This document shows, piece after piece, positions 6,880 through 35,236 of a stretch of 64,000 nt of DNA (the stretch's first letter is position 1; each line of letters starts with the position of its first letter). The notes beneath the pieces were generated by a model. The model searched no databases. It was not told the origin of the DNA and saw only the letters and a program-made list of their open reading frames with translations. Made by a program: the position numbers and the translations under genes. The DNA comes from a virus, in the IMG/VR virus record IMGVR_UViG_3300044633_000899, positions 211,306 to 275,305 of that record, one strand, 5' to 3'.

Positions 6880-8064
6880 TTAAAAATACAAATTGGTTTT
6901 AGGGTTATAAACCAATTCACCATTCCCCCCATTAAATAAACCCTCAATTAACATATCATACGTTTTAATAACGTCTTCGTTACTTATATGATATCTTTGT
7001 AAAACCTTATCGTTTCGTTGATTATAACGGTCAATATCAGCGTCATGCTCAACCAATACTTGATTTAATAATTTAGCCGCCTCAACGGTATCAGAACCCT
7101 CATAATAATAACCCAAATCTTTACACATAGGAGCGTTATGTAATACAGGATAACCCAAATAAACAGCGTCCAAATATAAATAATTTAATGGGTTTAATAA
7201 TTGGTGACATATTAATATATCCAAATGTTGTGTTAACATAAATGCTGTTTGATATCTTGATTCAGCACTAATCTTTCCTTCTTTATATAAATCAAAGGTT
7301 TCAATGATTGACATAAATTCCCTATGTTTTGATACGGTGGTAGCATTTGTTATTCTTAATTTTTCAATACGTTTTCTACCTTCAGATGTTCTATATGATT
7401 CTTCAGCAATCATCGCTGGAATTAAACAAAATTTAACAATATTTAAGTTTGGTTCCATAATACCCAAAATCTTTTTTTCTTTGGTATTATCATATTGCCA
7501 ATCCTTTTTATATTTCCCATCTTTAAAACCTTTATGTATTTCAACAACAGATTCGTGTAGATATTTTTCAGACCAAATAAATGGTACTGGTATTGCATTA
7601 ACACGATATAGTGTTTTATATAATCCAGAATTTACCTCGTGTTGTTGTGGTACATACCATACTTCATCATATTGTTTTTCGTATTGGAATTTTTTACTCT
7701 CACTTTGTTTAAATAAAATATTTTCCATATGGATTACATAGTTATTTCCACACTTATAAGATACAACCTTTTTATTTTTTCCAGATTTTTTAAAGGTTTC
7801 AAGTTGATGGTCAAATATTTGGGCACCCATACAAATAATCAAATCCATTTCCATAAAAACATCATTGAAGTAATGTACATCAATATCTGTTAAATAAGAT
7901 GGTTTTTCTGTAAAATCAACATTCGTAGAGTTTAATATGCAGACATCATAATTTTTGGTTGATTTTTTTAATAGTTCAACCAACATCAATACATTTTGTT
8001 TAATACCATTTGTCCAGATGGATTCTTTGTTGTCTTTAAGACCTAATGTAATACCTATTTTCAT
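6880..8064 (-). CDS. DUF2827-like glycosyltransferase
   Basis: The 394-residue protein starts MKIGITLG and contains IWTNGIKQNVLMLVELL, a two-Rossmann-domain layout, and a C-terminal NPLNYLYLDAVYLGYP segment followed by DLGYYYEG. These features match my memory of the DUF2827 family of GT-B-like glycosyltransferases; the assignment is from pattern, without a search. It overlaps the upstream J-domain gene by 4 bases and is probably translationally coupled to it. It could modify host surface glycans, or glycosylate the Thr/Pro-rich virion proteins encoded nearby. No signal peptide is present, so it should act in the cytoplasm. Confidence 0.65.
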   Translation of the reverse strand: MKIGITLGLKDNKESIWTNGIKQNVLMLVELLKKSTKNYDVCILNSTNVDFTEKPSYLTDIDVHYFNDVFMEMDLIICMGAQIFDHQLETFKKSGKNKKVVSYKCGNNYVIHMENILFKQSESKKFQYEKQYDEVWYVPQQHEVNSGLYKTLYRVNAIPVPFIWSEKYLHESVVEIHKGFKDGKYKKDWQYDNTKEKKILGIMEPNLNIVKFCLIPAMIAEESYRTSEGRKRIEKLRITNATTVSKHREFMSIIETFDLYKEGKISAESRYQTAFMLTQHLDILICHQLLNPLNYLYLDAVYLGYPVLHNAPMCKDLGYYYEGSDTVEAAKLLNQVLVEHDADIDRYNQRNDKVLQRYHISNEDVIKTYDMLIEGLFNGGNGELVYNPKTNLYF

Positions 8065-22971: not shown

Positions 22972-25911
22972 ATGATATCAGCAGAAGAAATTAAATCCTT
23001 CCTAGAAGGGAATGATCCAGAAGAACACATAGTCGCAATTGAGTTTGATTACCAAAAGGACTGTATATATAAAATCAAAGAAATCCCAGATAAGGGAAAA
23101 TCTATCGTTAAAGATAGTTTAATAGCATTCGCTTGGGTTGGTGACCTACGTGGGTTAAATTTTTACCAAGGTTCAAAAGCATTACAAAAAGAAGCAATGT
23201 CCAAATATGGTATTGTTATTGATAAATTACGAACCGATGGAAACGAACAATTAGAAAAAGGTTTAACATTCTTAGTTAAATCAATGAAAGGTTATAGATC
23301 ATTAACACAATTCTTTAAAGATGGTGGTATTGATCCGTGGGGTGAAAAAGCAAAAGATAAATTCATAATGTTAACCCCCACAGAACAATTCCTAGTATCA
23401 AAAGAAAAAAGATTGTTTAAAGGTTTTGAGGATTATAACACTGTTACCAGACTTGTATTTGACCTTGAGACAACCTCTTTAGAACCAAAAGATGGTAGGA
23501 TATTTATGATTGGTATCAAAACCAATAAAGGATACAGAAAGGTTATTGAGTGTACAAACGATGATGAAGAAAGAAAAGGTATTACCGAATTTTTTAAAAT
23601 CATTGACGAATTAAAACCATCAATAATATCTGGTTACAATTCATTTAACTTTGACTGGAAATGGATTTATGAAAGATGTGAAATCTTAAACATTGACATA
23701 AAAAGAATCGCAAAAACATTAAACAGTCAACGTCCAATATCACAAAAAGATTCAATGTTAAAATTGGGTAACGAAGTTGAGAGGTTTGTTCAAACTCAAA
23801 TGTGGGGTTATAACAATATTGATATTATCCATTCTGTACGTAGAGCACAAGCAATTAATTCATCAATAAAAGAAGCGGGTCTTAAATACATAACAAAACA
23901 TATTAACGCAGAAGCAAAAGATCGTGTGTATATTGATCATAATAAAATTGGGTCAATGTATAGAGATAAGGAAGAACATTGGTTAAATATTGAGAATGGT
24001 AATTATAAAAAGATTGGTGTTGACCCAAAGATTGATGAGATTTGTGAACGAAGAAACGATATCTATATTAAAACAACAGGTGATGATATTGTTGAGAGAT
24101 ACCTTGACGATGACCTTGAAGAAACGTTATTAGTTGACGAACAGTTTAATCAAGGATCATTTCTATTAGCGTCATTACTTCCAACAACTTATGAGAGAGT
24201 ATCAACAATGGGTACTGCGACAATCTGGAAATTGGTAATGTTGGCGTGGTCATATAAAAATGGTTTGGCAATTCCTGCGAAAAAAGAAAAACGAAACTTT
24301 GTTGGTGGATTGTCACGATTGTTAAAGGTGGGTTACTCAAGAGACGTTTTAAAATTAGACTACTCGTCACTTTACCCATCAATCCAACTTACACACGATG
24401 TGTTTCCAGAATCAGATATAACTGGTGTTATGAAAGGTTTATTATCTTACTTTAGGGATACTCGTATTATGTATAAGAATTTATCCGCCGAATGGAAATC
24501 AAAAGATGTTAAAATATCACAGAAGTATGATAATTTCCAATTACCTGTAAAAATATTTATTAATTCACTTTTTGGTGCGTTATCAGCACCACAAGTATTT
24601 CCGTGGGGTGATATGGACAGAGGTGAAATGATAACCTGTACCGGTCGTCAGTATTTAAGAATGATGATAAATTTTTTTACAGAAAGGGGTTACAATGCGA
24701 GCGTGATGGACACTGACGGCATTAATTTCTCTGTTCCAAGTGGTGTTGAAAATAGAAGGTATGTTGGTAAAGGTCTTAACTGGTTGGTGGAAGAAGGTAA
24801 AGAATATGTTGGGGCTGACGCTGATGTTGCGGAATTTAACGATATGTGTATGAGGGGAACGATGGGCCTCGATACTGACGGGAGTTGGCCAGCATGTATT
24901 AATCTTGCTCGTAAAAATTATGCGTTATTAACAGATAAAGGTAAAGTCAAGTTAACGGGTAACTCAATTAAGTCCAAAAAAATGCCAAAATATATTGAGG
25001 TGTTTTTAGATAAAGGAATTAAAATGTTATTAAATGGTTATGGTCAAGATTTTGTTGAGTGGTATTATGATTATTTACATAGAATTTTTGACCAAGATAT
25101 CCCCCTAATGGAAATTGCGAATAAAGCCAAGATTAAACAAAGTGTTGGTGATTACATTAAAAGAAGTAAAACAACAACCAAATCTGGTGCGTTAATGTCA
25201 AGACAAGCACATATGGAGTTGGCGATTTTAGAGAACTTAAACGTCAATCTCGGTGATGTCATCTATTATGTAAACAACGGAACAAAGGCAACACACGGAG
25301 ATGTACAAAAAGTTAATAAACCAAAGGCGGGTTGGAACGATGAACAAATAAAATTATTTTTTTCCGATTCTACAACATCTAAAGTTACTTACAAAGAAAA
25401 AGAAAGTTTCCTGCTTGAAAATGGTTGGGAAAAGTCTTGGTCAGAAGATAATTGGGTACGTAGTAATTCTAAAAATAAAGAGGCAAATACTGGTATACCA
25501 ACAGATACCGCTTATAAAGTTGCTAATTCAGATTCCGTTATCCAATTAAATTGTTATAGAATTGACCCCCAGGAATTAGAGAGTAACCCTAATCTAAGAG
25601 GTGAATATAATGTTCAAAGGGCAATCGCAACATTTAATAAAAGGGTTGAACCATTATTGGTATGTTTTAAAGAAGAAGTTAGAAATGGATTGTTAGTTAA
25701 AAATCCAGAAGAAAGACCTTACTTTACAAAAGATCAGTGTGAACTAATCAATGGCGTTCCTTTTGATGATGAAGATCAGGATAAATTGGAGGACGTTATG
25801 GAAATGTCAGACGATGAGGTTGTGTTTTGGGAAAAGGTTGGTGTTTCACCATATCATATGTATGATAACATTGACCCATATATGGTCAAATTCATACCTC
25901 AAGAAGTTTAA
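22972..25911 (+). CDS. 43: Family B DNA polymerase (T4 gp43-like)
   Basis: The 979-residue protein carries the family B motifs in order. The 3'-5' exonuclease has ExoI RLVFDLETTSLEP (about residue 160) and ExoII SGYNSFNFDWKW. The polymerase has motif A LKLDYSSLYPS (about 460), motif B LPVKIFINSLFGALS, and motif C as MDTDGINF (about 580), with Gly in place of the usual Ser of DTDS. It is slightly longer than T4 gp43 (898). The enzyme replicates the phage genome with the SSB, helicase and nuclease encoded at 57-64 kb. A Bacteroidetes-type promoter precedes it, and its stop overlaps the convergent gene by 4 bases with no visible terminator. Confidence 0.95.
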   Translation: MISAEEIKSFLEGNDPEEHIVAIEFDYQKDCIYKIKEIPDKGKSIVKDSLIAFAWVGDLRGLNFYQGSKALQKEAMSKYGIVIDKLRTDGNEQLEKGLTFLVKSMKGYRSLTQFFKDGGIDPWGEKAKDKFIMLTPTEQFLVSKEKRLFKGFEDYNTVTRLVFDLETTSLEPKDGRIFMIGIKTNKGYRKVIECTNDDEERKGITEFFKIIDELKPSIISGYNSFNFDWKWIYERCEILNIDIKRIAKTLNSQRPISQKDSMLKLGNEVERFVQTQMWGYNNIDIIHSVRRAQAINSSIKEAGLKYITKHINAEAKDRVYIDHNKIGSMYRDKEEHWLNIENGNYKKIGVDPKIDEICERRNDIYIKTTGDDIVERYLDDDLEETLLVDEQFNQGSFLLASLLPTTYERVSTMGTATIWKLVMLAWSYKNGLAIPAKKEKRNFVGGLSRLLKVGYSRDVLKLDYSSLYPSIQLTHDVFPESDITGVMKGLLSYFRDTRIMYKNLSAEWKSKDVKISQKYDNFQLPVKIFINSLFGALSAPQVFPWGDMDRGEMITCTGRQYLRMMINFFTERGYNASVMDTDGINFSVPSGVENRRYVGKGLNWLVEEGKEYVGADADVAEFNDMCMRGTMGLDTDGSWPACINLARKNYALLTDKGKVKLTGNSIKSKKMPKYIEVFLDKGIKMLLNGYGQDFVEWYYDYLHRIFDQDIPLMEIANKAKIKQSVGDYIKRSKTTTKSGALMSRQAHMELAILENLNVNLGDVIYYVNNGTKATHGDVQKVNKPKAGWNDEQIKLFFSDSTTSKVTYKEKESFLLENGWEKSWSEDNWVRSNSKNKEANTGIPTDTAYKVANSDSVIQLNCYRIDPQELESNPNLRGEYNVQRAIATFNKRVEPLLVCFKEEVRNGLLVKNPEERPYFTKDQCELINGVPFDDEDQDKLEDVMEMSDDEVVFWEKVGVSPYHMYDNIDPYMVKFIPQEV

Positions 25912-26285
25912 TTAAATTTAACACCATCACTTGCGATAACATACCAATTACCTTCAAGAAACTGGAACTGAACACAGGCACCCTTCTCTAAAAGAAGTTC
26001 GTCCCATTCTTCATCTATAGAACCAACATCAGTTTTAATTAAAACATTTGTTAGTGATTTAATTGTTATTTTATTTGTTTTTCCCGATTTTAAAGTAACT
26101 TCAGAATATTCAACGTCTTTAACAATTAAAAATGACTCATCGTTAATTATGTAATTATCAACAGAAATTATTTTTTGTATTTCCGTTGGTTTTTCAACAA
26201 CTACTTTTGGTTCAACAACCGTTTGTGTGTGATATCTAACAACATTTTTTCGTTGTGTGATATTTTCTACTCTTAATCCACCCAT
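25908..26285 (-). CDS. Unknown protein following the neck protein gene
   Basis: The 125-residue protein is beta-rich in its second half (IIKS-like strands, then CVQFQFLEGNWYVIASDG). Its first half is charged, with VVEPKVVVEKP. The ending resembles small beta domains on phage structural proteins. Its start overlaps the stop of the gp13-like gene by one base, so the two are probably translated together and it may be a neck accessory or fibritin-like piece. The family is not recognised. Confidence 0.5.
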   Translation of the reverse strand: MGGLRVENITQRKNVVRYHTQTVVEPKVVVEKPTEIQKIISVDNYIINDESFLIVKDVEYSEVTLKSGKTNKITIKSLTNVLIKTDVGSIDEEWDELLLEKGACVQFQFLEGNWYVIASDGVKFN

Positions 26286-27412
26286 TATATTACGTATATT
26301 TGTCTTGGCATCGCCCTAAATTTTAGGGATTTATTTAAATTTTCAGCAAGTAATGCTTCTCTTTCAATTACTTTGTCTGGTTTCAATCTTGTTAATCTTC
26401 CTTCAGCACCAATTAACTCATCAATTAATTTTGTTTTTTCATCTTTCGCTTCAGTTGCAAGTGATGTGTAATCCATTGTTAAGTCACCGTCTGGTGTTTT
26501 TAAGTTACCACTGAATTTTCCACGTACTCTAGAAAGTGTTTCTTTACAGTAAGCAATAAACCATCGTCTAACCCAAATTTGAGAGGGGTTATTTAAGTCC
26601 ACCCAACTCATTTTATCAAATGGTACATCAGAAGGTAATTTAATAATGTCTGGGTTGTCTTTTAAACATTTGTCTCTATCGGCAGGACCAACATCATAAT
26701 ACCAATACCAGACCTTTCCTTTTGTTAGTGTTCCATTACCAAAGTCAAATTTACCACCAGGTGTGTTCATTAAGTGTATCGCTTTTTTACCATCGGGTAA
26801 CGCTGTTACTCTATATGTTAAATCACCTGCGATAATTCTTCTTTGTATGTTTATTTCTTGCATTCTTAATAACATATCAAACGCCGGCATCATAAAATAA
26901 CTTCCGGCCATATTACCCATTTGTGCAAGACCTCCGCCACCACCAAGACCACCTCCGGCACCTAACGCACCAAAAGACCAAGGGTCAAACATTGTATTAT
27001 TTAATGTCGCTGGGGTAAACCATAGTAATTCGTTTAATTCACGATTGGCAGGTATTTCATATATTTGTTGGTTTGGTGCTAATTGAATGTAGTCTTTTTT
27101 TAAGACACTCTCACCGCCTGCTTGTAACCCAACAATTTTTGAGTAAGCATAAGTATATCTTGTTTCATAATCTAAACTTCTTGTCGTAAACGCTTTTGAT
27201 AAAGATTGTGTGTCTAAGTTTAAATTGTTTAATGCAGTCCATTGTGACTCAATTAACCAATCTTGTACATATTGTGAATATTCATCAATTGAGAACTCTA
27301 AAAGTGTATCCATTTGTTCGTCCTCTAACTCAACACTTCTCTGTGGAGCACCTAATAAATGTCTAACTTTTTTATATAAGTTACTTCTTTCTGGTTCGTC
27401 AATTATTCCCAT
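26285..27412 (-). CDS. gp13-like neck (head completion) protein
   Basis: The 375-residue protein begins with VRHLLGAPQRSVELEDEQM followed by a helical DEYSQYVQDWL, and has a late segment WVRRWFIAYCKETLSRVRGK, KFSGNLKTPDGDLTMD and then EKTKLIDELIG. This order (LGAP...V.l.deq, RW...Y.ke...r.r.KFsG...p.G..l) matches T4-like cyanophage gp13 neck proteins as I recall them. A glycine-rich insert (about residues 147-165: GALGAGGGLGGGGGL) is unusual. The protein would close the filled head at the portal vertex. TATTTAT lies 13 nt upstream. Confidence 0.65.
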   Translation of the reverse strand: MGIIDEPERSNLYKKVRHLLGAPQRSVELEDEQMDTLLEFSIDEYSQYVQDWLIESQWTALNNLNLDTQSLSKAFTTRSLDYETRYTYAYSKIVGLQAGGESVLKKDYIQLAPNQQIYEIPANRELNELLWFTPATLNNTMFDPWSFGALGAGGGLGGGGGLAQMGNMAGSYFMMPAFDMLLRMQEINIQRRIIAGDLTYRVTALPDGKKAIHLMNTPGGKFDFGNGTLTKGKVWYWYYDVGPADRDKCLKDNPDIIKLPSDVPFDKMSWVDLNNPSQIWVRRWFIAYCKETLSRVRGKFSGNLKTPDGDLTMDYTSLATEAKDEKTKLIDELIGAEGRLTRLKPDKVIEREALLAENLNKSLKFRAMPRQIYVI

Positions 27413-27448: not shown

Positions 27449-27895
27449 TTAACCGATTACCATTAATTTTGGGTTGTAGTTTCTAACTGGGTTTGCGTCA
27501 CTTATGTTAAACGTTTTGTCTAACCACACTTTTATAATTGATTCTGTTTGTTCTGGTGTTAATTTAAAAAAATTTTCTAACACCATCCAAAATTCAGAAT
27601 TGTTAATAAACATTTTTTTTGTCAATAGATTAAAAACTATCAAATTGTCATTTGGTTTTTTGCGAAACAACATTAAATTAGATGATGTTTTACTTATAAC
27701 CGTTTCTAAATCGTTATACAAATTTAAAAACTCAAACGGATTGTTGTCAAACCCTTTTGATATGATTGTGTCAATACTATTAAAATATATTAATTTATTC
27801 CACCCCTCATTTTTAATCTTATTTTGGATGATTTCTTTTTCACTTAAAGATTCATTTAATCTTTTGTACTGACTTTCGGATATAATAATTTTCAT
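27449..27895 (-). CDS. Paralogue-array protein A (divergent member)
   Basis: This 148-residue protein is the most diverged member of a six-copy family. It starts MKIIISESQYKRLNE, like the others, then has a helical middle (FEFLNLYNDLETV), a beta section (NLIVFNLLTKKMFINNSEF), the VLENFFKL helix and a unique tail. The leader ends in LNE, close to the L/I-x-E sites cut by T4-type prohead protease. The function is unknown; it may be an internal head protein (see findings). TATTTAT lies 4 nt upstream. Confidence 0.6.
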   Translation of the reverse strand: MKIIISESQYKRLNESLSEKEIIQNKIKNEGWNKLIYFNSIDTIISKGFDNNPFEFLNLYNDLETVISKTSSNLMLFRKKPNDNLIVFNLLTKKMFINNSEFWMVLENFFKLTPEQTESIIKVWLDKTFNISDANPVRNYNPKLMVIG

Positions 27896-27916: not shown

Positions 27917-28366
27917 TCAATTTGTAGACCTCATCCAATTGTCATCAACACCAATTATCAATGGTATGACATCCCTTAAATTGTGGGTCAACCATTTCTG
28001 TATAAGTTTCTGTATATTAGTGTAGTTAAGACCAAAGTTACCTTCCAAAACTGACCAAATTTCATTATAATTAATATAAACCTCATCACTTTCTCTATCG
28101 TGAATGATAAAATTATGACCTTTTTTAAAACGATATAATGTCCAATATTCTTCTTCTTCACTCTGAACCGATTCCAGATCATTAAATAAGTTTAAGAAAT
28201 CCATTGGTTCTTTAATGTCAAAAATTTCAAGAGTTTTATCCAAGGACCCAACAATCTTTGTTACAGATTCAAAACCAACCTTTTTTATTAAACCCAATAA
28301 TTTTTCTTTTAAAGAAACGTTTTCTTTAATTAGTTTGTATTGACTTTCGGTGATGATAATTTTCAT
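27917..28366 (-). CDS. Paralogue-array protein B
   Basis: The 149-residue protein has the leader MKIIITESQYKLIKE, then NVSLKEKLLGLIKKVGFES and the conserved body (GSLDKTLEIFDIKEPMDFL, LFNDLESVQSEEE, YRFKKGHNFIIHDR, EIWSVLEGNFGL). The final 20 residues are unlike those of its sisters. It is nearly identical to protein C in the first 75 residues. No known domain is recognised. Small size, a private promoter and the leader suggest a virion-packaged protein; this is an inference. Confidence 0.65.
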   Translation of the reverse strand: MKIIITESQYKLIKENVSLKEKLLGLIKKVGFESVTKIVGSLDKTLEIFDIKEPMDFLNLFNDLESVQSEEEEYWTLYRFKKGHNFIIHDRESDEVYINYNEIWSVLEGNFGLNYTNIQKLIQKWLTHNLRDVIPLIIGVDDNWMRSTN

Positions 28367-28402: not shown

Positions 28403-28852
28403 TCATTCAATTTTTCCAATTACTTCCGTGCTGTTTGCGTAGATTCTGACTCCCCTTAAATTGTAGACCTCACCCAACCATATCTCTATAATTTTCTGTC
28501 TTTCAGAAAATTTAAGACCAAATTTATCTTCCAATACTGACCAAATTTCATCAGAATTGATATAAACAGAATCATTTTTTCTATCGTAAACCATAAAGTT
28601 ATGACCTTTTCTATAACGATACAATGTCCAATTTTCATCTTCCTCACTCTGAACCGATTCCAAATCATTAAATAAATTTAAGAAATCCATCGGTTCTTTG
28701 ACATCAAAGATTTCAAATGTTTTATCCAAAGATCCAACAATCTTTGTTACAGATTTAAAACCAACTTTTTTTATTAAACCCAACAATTTTTCCTTTAAAG
28801 AAACGTTTTCTTTGATTAGTTTGTATTGACTTTCGGATATAATAATTTTCAT
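28403..28852 (-). CDS. Paralogue-array protein C
   Basis: The 149-residue member has leader MKIIISESQYKLIKE and the conserved body (KIVGSLDKTFEIFDVKEPM, ESVQSEEDENWTLYRYRKG, SDEIWSVLEDKFGL, WLGEVYNLRGV), ending in its own short tail. It is closest to proteins B and F. Acidic and aromatic residues are conserved across the family (EPMDFL, NDL, W.L.R..K). The function is unknown. Confidence 0.65.
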   Translation of the reverse strand: MKIIISESQYKLIKENVSLKEKLLGLIKKVGFKSVTKIVGSLDKTFEIFDVKEPMDFLNLFNDLESVQSEEDENWTLYRYRKGHNFMVYDRKNDSVYINSDEIWSVLEDKFGLKFSERQKIIEIWLGEVYNLRGVRIYANSTEVIGKIE

Positions 28853-28887: not shown

Positions 28888-30411
28888 TCATCCAGTAAAG
28901 AAATCCATTGGCATAAATACAAATTTAGGTGTGACTCCCCTTAAATTGTAGACCTCATCCAACCACCTCTCTGTAAGTTTTTGTATTTCAGAGTAGTTAA
29001 GACCAAATTTATCTTCCAAAACTGACCAAATTTCATCATAATTGATATAAACATAATCCTTTTTTCTATCGTAAATCATTATATTATGATCTTTTTTATA
29101 ACGAAATAATATCCAATTTTCTTTTTCTTCAGATTGGGTACCTTTCAAATCATTAAATAGATGTAAGAAATCCATCGGTTCTTTAATGTCAAAAATTTTA
29201 AATAAATTATCCAAGGATCCAACAATTTTTGTTACAGATTCAAAACCAACTTTTTTGATTAAACCCAATAATTTTTCTTTTAAAGATATTGATTCATTTA
29301 ATGGTTTTTTATTATCCTCTTTTTTTGTTTTTGAGATATATAAATCATTAACAAATTCCCAATTAACACAATTCCAAAAGTTTTTAATATATTCGTCACG
29401 TTTATTTTGATATTTTAAATAATACGCGTGTTCCCAGACATCCAACCCCAACAATGGATAACCACCATCTTTAATGATATTCATTAATGGATTATCTTGA
29501 TTTGGTGTGGACATAATTTTAAGTCTATTTGTTTTTGTTAAGACAAGCCAAACCCAACCAGAACCAAATCTATCTTTTGCAATTTGGTTAAACTCATCTT
29601 TCATCTTTTTTATATTACCATATTGTTTGGTAATTTTATCAAAAATTTCACCCTTTGGTATTTGTTTCTTTGGTGACAACATCTTCCAAAACAAAGCGTG
29701 GTTAAAAGCACCCCCAGCGTTGTTTCGTACTTTCTCATCAAATTTACTAATTGATTTTATAATATCTTCTAATTCAAGATCTTTATGTTTTTTTTCAGAT
29801 AAAGCATCATTTAATTTTTTAACATAACCTTTATAATGTTTGTTGTAATGAATATCCATCGTTTTTGGATCAACAAATTGTTTTAATGCGGAATATGAAT
29901 ATGGTAATTTTTCAATACCAATTTTTTTCATTTCCATAATAAACTCTTCTTTGATGTTTTCTTTTTCCGTTAAGAGAATTTGTTCTGAGATAAGATTAAT
30001 TTTATTAACTATTTTTTCTGAACACTCAAAAACCAATTGATTATAATCTGGGTATTCTTTTTCAAACATTTTTATTAATCTACCAGCAAAAGCGTTTGCC
30101 TCATCTTCATTTTGACCACCAATATCTGGTCCTCGTTCTCTACCTAAAGAAAAACGTTGGTGTGCGTGAACCCACTCGTGAGCCAAGGTTCTCATAATGT
30201 CACGATTTAATCTATTTTTTGATAAAATTTTTAATGTACCGTCCATACTCTGACTACCAGTTGACATTTGACCCATTTTATCACCCAAAAACAAAATTGT
30301 TAAATCTTGATTAACAGGATAATGATTACCTAAAAACTTGATAAAATCATTGTACATTTTTTTATCGTTAGCATCAAGTCCAGAATCATTATGTTTAATT
30401 GTGATTTTCAT
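28888..30411 (-). CDS. Fusion: zincin metallopeptidase, Mn-type superoxide dismutase, array paralogue domain
   Basis: This 507-residue protein has three parts. Residues 1-125 hold a zincin: LAHEWVHAHQ gives H78, E79 and H82 (HExxH), and NEDEANAFA gives a likely third ligand, E104, as in gluzincins of the ImmA/IrrE type. Residues about 165-360 are a complete Fe/Mn superoxide dismutase: KLPYSYSALKQFV, MDIHYNKH (H188), NNAGGAFNHALFW (H238), FGSGWVWLVL, NQDNPLM and LGLDVWEHAYYLKYQN (D324, H328). All four metal ligands are kept, and GG..NH with NQDNPL point to Mn. Residues about 372-507 (LNESISLKEKLLGLIKKVG onward) are a paralogue of the flanking array proteins. SOD converts superoxide to H2O2 and O2. 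TATTTAT lies 4 nt before the ATG. The combination is not known to me in any phage. Confidence 0.85.
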   Translation of the reverse strand: MKITIKHNDSGLDANDKKMYNDFIKFLGNHYPVNQDLTILFLGDKMGQMSTGSQSMDGTLKILSKNRLNRDIMRTLAHEWVHAHQRFSLGRERGPDIGGQNEDEANAFAGRLIKMFEKEYPDYNQLVFECSEKIVNKINLISEQILLTEKENIKEEFIMEMKKIGIEKLPYSYSALKQFVDPKTMDIHYNKHYKGYVKKLNDALSEKKHKDLELEDIIKSISKFDEKVRNNAGGAFNHALFWKMLSPKKQIPKGEIFDKITKQYGNIKKMKDEFNQIAKDRFGSGWVWLVLTKTNRLKIMSTPNQDNPLMNIIKDGGYPLLGLDVWEHAYYLKYQNKRDEYIKNFWNCVNWEFVNDLYISKTKKEDNKKPLNESISLKEKLLGLIKKVGFESVTKIVGSLDNLFKIFDIKEPMDFLHLFNDLKGTQSEEKENWILFRYKKDHNIMIYDRKKDYVYINYDEIWSVLEDKFGLNYSEIQKLTERWLDEVYNLRGVTPKFVFMPMDFFTG

Positions 30412-30448: not shown

Positions 30449-30895
30449 TTAAATCATAGATATCATCCAATCCCAATTCTGAAAGTTCTCAAAAACCCAA
30501 GTCGGTCTGGTTCTCTTTAAATTGTAGGTATCATCCAACCAATCCTTAATAAGGTTACTTATATCATAATAGTTTGTTAAATGTTTCTGTTCTAAAACTG
30601 ACCAAATGTCACCATAATTGATATAAACAGCATCACTTCTTCTGTCGTGAATCATAATGTTATAACCTTTTTTATAACGATATAATGTCCAAGATGGTCT
30701 TTCCTCACTCTGAATTACATCCAATTCATTAAATAAATTTAAGAAATCCATCGGTTCTTTGATATCCAAAATTTCAAGTGTTTTATCCAAGGATCCAACA
30801 ATTTTTGTTGTGGACTTAAAACCAATTTTTTTAACTAAACCTAGTAATTTTTCTTTAATCGATTTATATTGATTTTCGGTTATAATAATTTTCAT
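30449..30895 (-). CDS. Paralogue-array protein E (short leader)
   Basis: The 148-residue member has a compressed N-terminus: MKIIITENQYKSIKE runs directly into KLLGLVKKIGFKS, lacking the NVSLKEK bridge of its sisters. The body is conserved (GSLDKTLEILDIKEPMDFL, YRYKKGYNIMIHDR, DIWSVLEQ) and the tail (PTWVFENFQNWDWMISMI) is unique and rich in Trp. The deletion keeps the I-x-E motif, which fits a role of that motif in processing. Confidence 0.65.
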   Translation of the reverse strand: MKIIITENQYKSIKEKLLGLVKKIGFKSTTKIVGSLDKTLEILDIKEPMDFLNLFNELDVIQSEERPSWTLYRYKKGYNIMIHDRRSDAVYINYGDIWSVLEQKHLTNYYDISNLIKDWLDDTYNLKRTRPTWVFENFQNWDWMISMI

Positions 30896-30916: not shown

Positions 30917-31366
30917 TTAAATTGTGGTGTTGTGTATACCAACAATATGGTTATACGTTGTGATTCCCTTTAAATCATAGACCTCATCCAACCACGTTTC
31001 TACAAGGGTTGTAATGTCACCAAAGTTAATATCAAAATTATCTTCCAAAATTGTCCATATTTCGTCATAATTAATGAAAACATATTTAATTTTTCTATCG
31101 TAAATCATAAAATTATGACCTTTTTTATATCTATACAATACCCAATTTGGTTCTTCTTCACTCTGAACAACATCCAAATCATTAAATAAGTTCAAGAAAT
31201 CCATTGGTTCTTTAATATCAAAGATATCAAAAGTTTTATCCAAAGACCCAACAACTCTTATCGTTGATTCAAATCCAACCTTTTTGATTAAACTCAATAA
31301 TTTTTCTTTTAAAGAAACGTTTTCTTTGATTAGTTTGTATTGACTTTCGGTTATTATTATTCGCAT
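30917..31366 (-). CDS. Paralogue-array protein F
   Basis: The 149-residue member starts MRIIITESQYKLIKE. The body follows the family (VGSLDKTFDIFDIKEPMDF, LDVVQSEEEPNWVLYRYKK, FINYDEIWTILEDNF, WLDEVYDLKGI) with a unique 15-residue tail. It is the first gene of the array in transcription order, next to the SNF2 gene. The function is unknown. Confidence 0.65.
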   Translation of the reverse strand: MRIIITESQYKLIKENVSLKEKLLSLIKKVGFESTIRVVGSLDKTFDIFDIKEPMDFLNLFNDLDVVQSEEEPNWVLYRYKKGHNFMIYDRKIKYVFINYDEIWTILEDNFDINFGDITTLVETWLDEVYDLKGITTYNHIVGIHNTTI

Positions 31367-34819: not shown

Positions 34820-35236
34820 ATGAAAAAAATTTTAAGACTAACAGAAAACGATTTAACCCGTATCGTTAAACGAGTTATTCGTGAACAAGATGGTGAATCA
34901 CATAATAAAATATCAGATGAAGATTTTGATTCTTTTTTAGATGTTTTATCACAATATGAATCAGGTGACATTACTTGGGATGACTTTTTAGAAAAAAGTG
35001 AAGCTATTGGTTCAAAATATGTGGTTGGACCAAAACCAAAATCAAACGTTTTTATTGGGTTGTCTAATCAAGTTGAAGAGTTTAATCAAAAGTTGTCAAA
35101 CCATTATGATGACCTAATTAGAAATTCTACGTTATTTGGTAATATTTATGATGCTTACGAATCTGGTGAATTAACTAACGATGAAGGGTTCACTCTATTG
35201 AAAATGATCCGTACGGTAGAATATAACGACCGTTAA
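34820..35236 (+). CDS. Small acidic protein with LTENDLTRIVKRVIRE leader
   Basis: The 138-residue protein opens with MKKILR then LTENDLTRIVKRVIRE, a basic amphipathic leader. In my experience it tops many otherwise unrelated small proteins in large uncultured phages. The rest is acidic and helical (ISDEDFDSFLDVLSQYESG, YDAYESGELTNDEGFTLL). The leader ends in V-I-R-E, matching the I-x-E cleavage motif of T4 prohead protease, as do the array proteins. It may be a scaffold or internal head protein (inference). There is no other domain. Confidence 0.6.
   Translation: MKKILRLTENDLTRIVKRVIREQDGESHNKISDEDFDSFLDVLSQYESGDITWDDFLEKSEAIGSKYVVGPKPKSNVFIGLSNQVEEFNQKLSNHYDDLIRNSTLFGNIYDAYESGELTNDEGFTLLKMIRTVEYNDR

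Follow-up and report, generated by a model that had tools for sequence, protein, structure and literature searches.

A zincin-superoxide dismutase fusion gene in a T4-like jumbo phage and its possible role as an internal-head polyprotein

One of the closest known systems to the one described here is that of the internal head proteins of phage T4 (IPI-III and Alt), the CTS of which is cut by the protease gp21. The motif for gp21 is (L/I)xE, and the gp67 and gp68 proteins of T4 are core proteins. Passages of two papers describe gp21 as cutting gp22, gp67 and gp68 after a glutamate that follows a short motif and as removing short N-terminal CTS propeptides; in the same passages, Alt is also cut at its C-terminal end and 10 residues are enough for foreign proteins to be packaged in T4 (PMC5694885, PMC9026906). 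The (L/I)xE pattern fits both the LIE-9 site named in those papers and the sequence of T4 gp22.

Among virus-encoded superoxide dismutases (SOD), the closest functional parallel is the Cu/Zn enzyme A245R of chlorovirus PBCV-1, the product of a late gene, which is packaged in the virion and has been linked to lower superoxide (PMC7019647). An Fe/Mn SOD is also encoded by the Pseudomonas phage Callisto/PA5oct group and by Vibrio phage 2.275.O. These are single-domain genes in another neighbourhood and are just 26-27% identical to the SOD considered here, which is joined to other domains.

The fusion gene and its relatives

The window, meaning the whole stretch of 64,000 nucleotides that was analysed, belongs to the record of a 296-kb T4-like phage, which is a giant (jumbo) phage of Bacteroidota. 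The fusion gene is a single intact ORF with an ATG start, the coordinates of which are given with those of its parts and neighbours in Table 1. It encodes a zincin with an HExxH motif, a full SOD of the Mn type by assignment and then a domain that has 14 other matches across the genome. The original prediction, that a metallopeptidase, a complete SOD and a paralogue domain are present in one protein, is thereby borne out with intact sites, and the catalytic and metal-ligand residues that it listed are all in place. In a sequence comparison, every catalytic residue is unchanged across 54 non-identical relatives.

Relatives are encoded in 243 IMG/VR stretches. In the 80 related loci that were kept, which have 57-94% identity to the fusion, the zincin and the SOD share one frame without exception (80/80), so the joining of separate genes through an assembly error is ruled out. 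The architecture had been thought to be new to described phages, and indeed none of 50,697 annotated phage records covers at least 80% of the fusion. In the literature, neither a zincin-SOD fusion nor a virion SOD in phages was found to be described. When 85k genomes of bacteria and archaea were scanned, the hits were unfused SODs only, mostly from Bacteroidota, and none was a zincin fusion. The structure model of the whole fusion has a low overall pTM (0.39), and the arrangement of its domains is left out of the argument.

Two other sets of genes in the same DNA can be mentioned here. Three similar genes in tandem, each starting MNVLSLFDGLSCGQIALNR, are found at positions 24348-26946 of the record and resemble DNA cytosine methyltransferases by eye. 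A DUF2827 protein (E 2e-101) is encoded at positions 6880-8064 (-) of the window.

Table 1. Features of the fusion gene and its surroundings, in window coordinates; a slash marks the putative cut in a motif.
Feature	Position	Strand	Basis
Zincin-MnSOD-paralogue-domain fusion gene, 507 aa	28888..30411	(-)	ORF, Pfam, IMG/VR relatives
N-terminal zincin metallopeptidase domain, residues 1-127	30031..30411	(-)	HEWVH + EDEA invariant in 54; model confidence
HExxH motif, residues 78-82 (HEWVH)	30166..30180	(-)	Sequence, invariant in relatives
Linker, probably flexible, residues 128-160, (L/I)xE after 143, 149, 155	29932..30030	(-)	Sequence; model confidence
Predicted Mn-type SOD domain, residues about 161-360, ligands H188, H238, D324, H328	29332..29931	(-)	Pfam, structure match, NCBIfam
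SOD/C-domain junction, residues 361-380, PLNE373/S + SLKE379/K	29272..29331	(-)	Sequence; model confidence
C-terminal paralogue domain, residues 374-507	28891..29292	(-)	Homology to array, alignment
Late-promoter-like element ATATTTAT, 4 nt before start codon	30416..30423	(-)	Upstream motif comparison
Array paralogue, leader MKIIISESQYKRLNE	27449..27895	(-)	ORF, alignment
Array paralogue, leader MKIIITESQYKLIKE	27917..28366	(-)	ORF, alignment
Array paralogue, leader MKIIISESQYKLIKE	28403..28852	(-)	ORF, alignment
Array paralogue, leader MKIIITENQYKSIKE	30449..30895	(-)	ORF, alignment
Array paralogue, leader MRIIITESQYKLIKE	30917..31366	(-)	ORF, alignment
Further leader-bearing gene, MKKILRLTENDLTRIVKRVIRE/Q	34820..35236	(+)	ORF, leader

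The enzyme domains and the exchangeable third domain

The SOD contains both Pfam domains of the Fe/Mn family (Sod_Fe_C 6e-40, Sod_Fe_N 4e-22) and its four metal ligands, three His and one Asp, which are invariant in the 54 non-identical relatives. Its best solved relatives are Sphingobacterium MnSOD structures (1.8e-61), and the structure prediction fits the Sphingobacterium MnSOD with a TM of 0.83 of the target and an E of 5e-17. The NCBIfam score is higher for Mn-SOD (200 bits) than for Fe-SOD (159 bits), and the residues typical of the Mn type are present, these being the GG in NNAGG and the outer-sphere Gln in NQD. The domain is assigned to the Mn type from these residues and the nearest solved structures. 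The MnSOD of Sphingobacterium sp. T2 (5a9g, 6gsc) and its Ferruginibacter homologues have the same fold, ligands and Mn-type residues at 46-53% identity, but unlike the phage copies the bacterial enzymes are not fused to a zincin in any of the bacterial genomes returned. In a tree, the phage SODs cluster tightly together at the end of a long branch; a long-branch Fluviicola row, whose placement is unsafe, joins them. The simplest reading of the tree would be one acquisition from a Bacteroidota-type SOD.

The N-terminal domain has the features of a gluzincin-like zincin, with HExxH and a conserved downstream Glu within the EDEA at residues 102-105, where E102 or E104 is the candidate metal ligand. 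Residues H78, E79, H82, E102, D103 and E104 are invariant in the 54 non-identical relatives. Model confidence is mostly 79-95 up to residue 120, dipping to 66 at residues 91-100. The ImmA-type label that the domain had been given was dropped, there being no match to the ImmA/IrrE family in Pfam at E<=1 or in NCBIfam at E<=0.1; nor was there a significant match to solved structures. Similar small zincin-like proteins are gp332 of Synechococcus phage B23 (38% over residues 56-123) and the family phrog_1365 (E 0.004), neither of which is fused to SOD as the zincin is here.

The proteins of the flanking array are homologues of the C-terminal domain, which has 15 matches in the record when the fusion gene is included. 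Among the 80 loci, nothing follows the SOD in 40, an array-type domain follows it in 12, a module of ~330 aa in 21 and a module of ~340 aa in 7, so that 28 loci carry one of two unrelated C-modules instead of the array-type domain. Because of this variation, the third domain is exchangeable and no fixed part of the architecture. The original prediction had the virion deliver the enzymes, with the paralogue domain as their address. Delivery stays probable; the domain as a universal address is rejected, being absent from 40 of the 80 loci and replaced in 28. For the same reason the domain resembles additional cargo or a component of the core. In one IMG/VR relative (L033) the fused domain is most similar to the adjacent array of the same phage, as if copied from it.

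The fold of the C-terminal domain has no match in the PDB and just weak matches to uncultured phage proteins, and the two other C-modules have no convincing profile or PDB relative. Modules that replace the third domain at L054:2662-3702 and L026:6090-7097 contain GQDFDV...IQVK and DFE...PYDV...ISCK, which by eye are like a PD-(D/E)XK core, with no profile match.

Junction motifs, leaders and the head genes

Both inter-domain linkers are probably flexible, model confidence being below 50 over residues 129-174 and again over residues 365-375; the model shows the first one as helical. The first motif in this linker is LISE143/Q, of which L/I-x-E143 is kept in 54/54 sequences, where linker residues other than E143 are also invariant. 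Just past the SOD, an (L/I)xE-type motif is found in all relatives that are extended at the C-terminus, while the unextended forms end before it. A common origin of this junction among the extended forms is possible, so that they are not fully independent. The fused C-terminal domain is without the leader MKIIITESQYKL and has a cut-site-like LNE/S where the stand-alone copies have IKE/N. Judged by these sequences, the linker segments resemble cutting sites for the head protease that the phage itself encodes. The bare (L/I)xE is a weak motif; its density in the remaining proteins of G000 is 12.8 per 1000 aa. A short T4-CTS-like motif ending in (L/I)xE stands at the start of the array proteins and again at both junctions between domains, and is a better candidate than the C-terminal domain for the address and release signal.

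Short leaders of the (L/I)xE kind are present on about 38 genes of the phage, the array included, and leaders such as MKKIIRLTESDLTRIVKRVIKE and MKIIITESQYKLIKE start many unrelated proteins. The leader pattern is found at 10.6% of N-termini versus 0.19% at internal Met, and at 0.27% of N-termini in bacterial control loci, while genome-wide the bare motif is only modestly over-represented at N-termini (112 versus 92 +/- 7). The leaders have no match by tblastn in annotated phage records, so packaging of the proteins that bear them is proposed by analogy. One leader-bearing protein, of 478 aa (record 77537-78973, +), has GDSL lipase, peptidoglycan-binding and phage lysozyme domains.

The sequence [AG]TATTTAT lies 4-6 nt before the fusion gene and most array genes, and is present in nearly all relatives. 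It is found further upstream of the portal, protease, scaffold, capsid and sheath genes. Under a leader definition made for this analysis, and with gene calls of a simple kind, it occurs within 60 nt of 26 of the 38 leader genes versus 50 of the 265 others (Fisher p 1.5e-9), and it is read as a putative late promoter. Across the whole record the element is often only 4-6 nt before the ATG, a spacing which suggests leaderless late mRNAs.

T4-type head genes are present in the same phage, including a portal (phrog_213), a gp21-like protease (phrog_207, 7e-43, record 167773-168498) and a gp23-like capsid protein (phrog_138, 3e-67). Their order is that of T4 20-67-68-21-22-23, with one paralogue of the C-terminal domain between portal and protease, in the place of gp67 and gp68. 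The gp21-like protease was seen in 6 of 15 related contigs, the two largest among them; the others may be fragments. The capsid cleavage site aligns with that of T4 (FLINE/AT versus FLTE/AE), and the core protein is enriched in [LI]xE[SNAQGT], with 7 versus 1.8 expected (p 0.0015). The portal gene (1031 aa, record 162873-165968, +) has an HNH endonuclease region inside it, which is probably an intein or a homing element inserted there, and a homing-endonuclease-like gene lies directly after the capsid gene (record 172474-174198, +).

A possible polyprotein and its known parallels

On balance, it is rather likely that the fusion is an internal-head (ejection) polyprotein of this T4-like jumbo phage, which is packed, cut and ejected with the DNA. 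It does not start with a short leader ending in (L/I)xE, since the zincin begins the protein and the motifs are internal; a targeting signal would therefore have to be internal as well. The fusion would be a late product, synthesised along with the capsid proteins, and would be drawn into the prohead, where the gp21-like protease would cut after (L/I)xE in both flexible linkers. These cuts would release three parts, namely the zincin as a small peptidase, the Mn-type SOD, which would act as a dimer, and the domain of the array type, and all three would enter the host along with the DNA. There the SOD would remove superoxide in early infection and the zincin would act on some host or phage protein. 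We infer packaging, cleavage, ejection and a benefit of the fusion, the function, by analogy with the virion-packaged chlorovirus SOD, probably being a pulse of SOD and peptidase at infection. Chances are about even for the wider proposal that this head-packaged multi-enzyme polyprotein is one of a leader-bearing cargo set of ~38 proteins in a modular delivery system based on the T4 CTS, with swappable third parts, possible nucleases among them.

It is unlikely that the fusion instead stays uncut in the cell as an auxiliary metabolic enzyme that lowers oxidative stress, the zincin being a passenger or self-regulating. The SOD does look fully functional from its residues, and stand-alone SOD genes are near chaperone or DNA-metabolism genes in other jumbo phages, but such a role fits poorly with an upstream element common to head genes, with head-protease motifs in the linkers, and with a constant zincin fusion whose C-modules are partly homologous to leader-bearing arrays. 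Less likely again is a protein that is packaged whole, as an internal or external component of the virion in which (L/I)xE is incidental. Conservation of the E143 motif in 54/54 sequences, its occurrence at all extended junctions and the low model confidence of these probably flexible junctions all weigh against this, even though the motif is short, the model gives the first linker as helical and, according to PMC5694885, processing of jumbo-phage ejection proteins is not universal. Least likely is that the zincin, instead of being cargo itself, serves as a propeptide or carrier to direct the SOD into the prohead, a reading that otherwise overlaps with the polyprotein one: the domain is N-terminal, where SPN3US-type head proteins have long propeptides according to a passage of PMC5694885, yet its catalytic residues, needless in a mere carrier, are invariant and it has a stand-alone relative in Synechococcus phage B23.

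If the polyprotein is packaged, this phage would be the first, to our knowledge, for which injection of an antioxidant enzyme is shown, and the capsid-targeting principle of T4 would have given rise to a cargo system in which polyproteins have exchangeable parts. A testable question that follows is whether superoxide restricts phages of aerobic Bacteroidota at entry, and the natural leaders and linkers are offered for the loading of enzymes into phage heads.

Like the IPI-III/Alt system of T4, this phage has (L/I)xE motifs, a gp21-like protease and a T4-type head module. The short leaders on the array paralogues and the upstream element common to head genes are also T4-like. The cargo in T4 is one protein behind an N-terminal leader, whereas here two enzymes, SOD and zincin, would be the cargo and are joined to a third domain, with the sites between the domains and no leader at the front. 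As with A245R of PBCV-1, the SOD is virus-encoded, probably carried in the virion and early-acting, but the chlorovirus enzyme has an unrelated fold, is of the Cu/Zn rather than the Mn/Fe kind, is not part of a fusion and belongs to a virus of a eukaryotic host.
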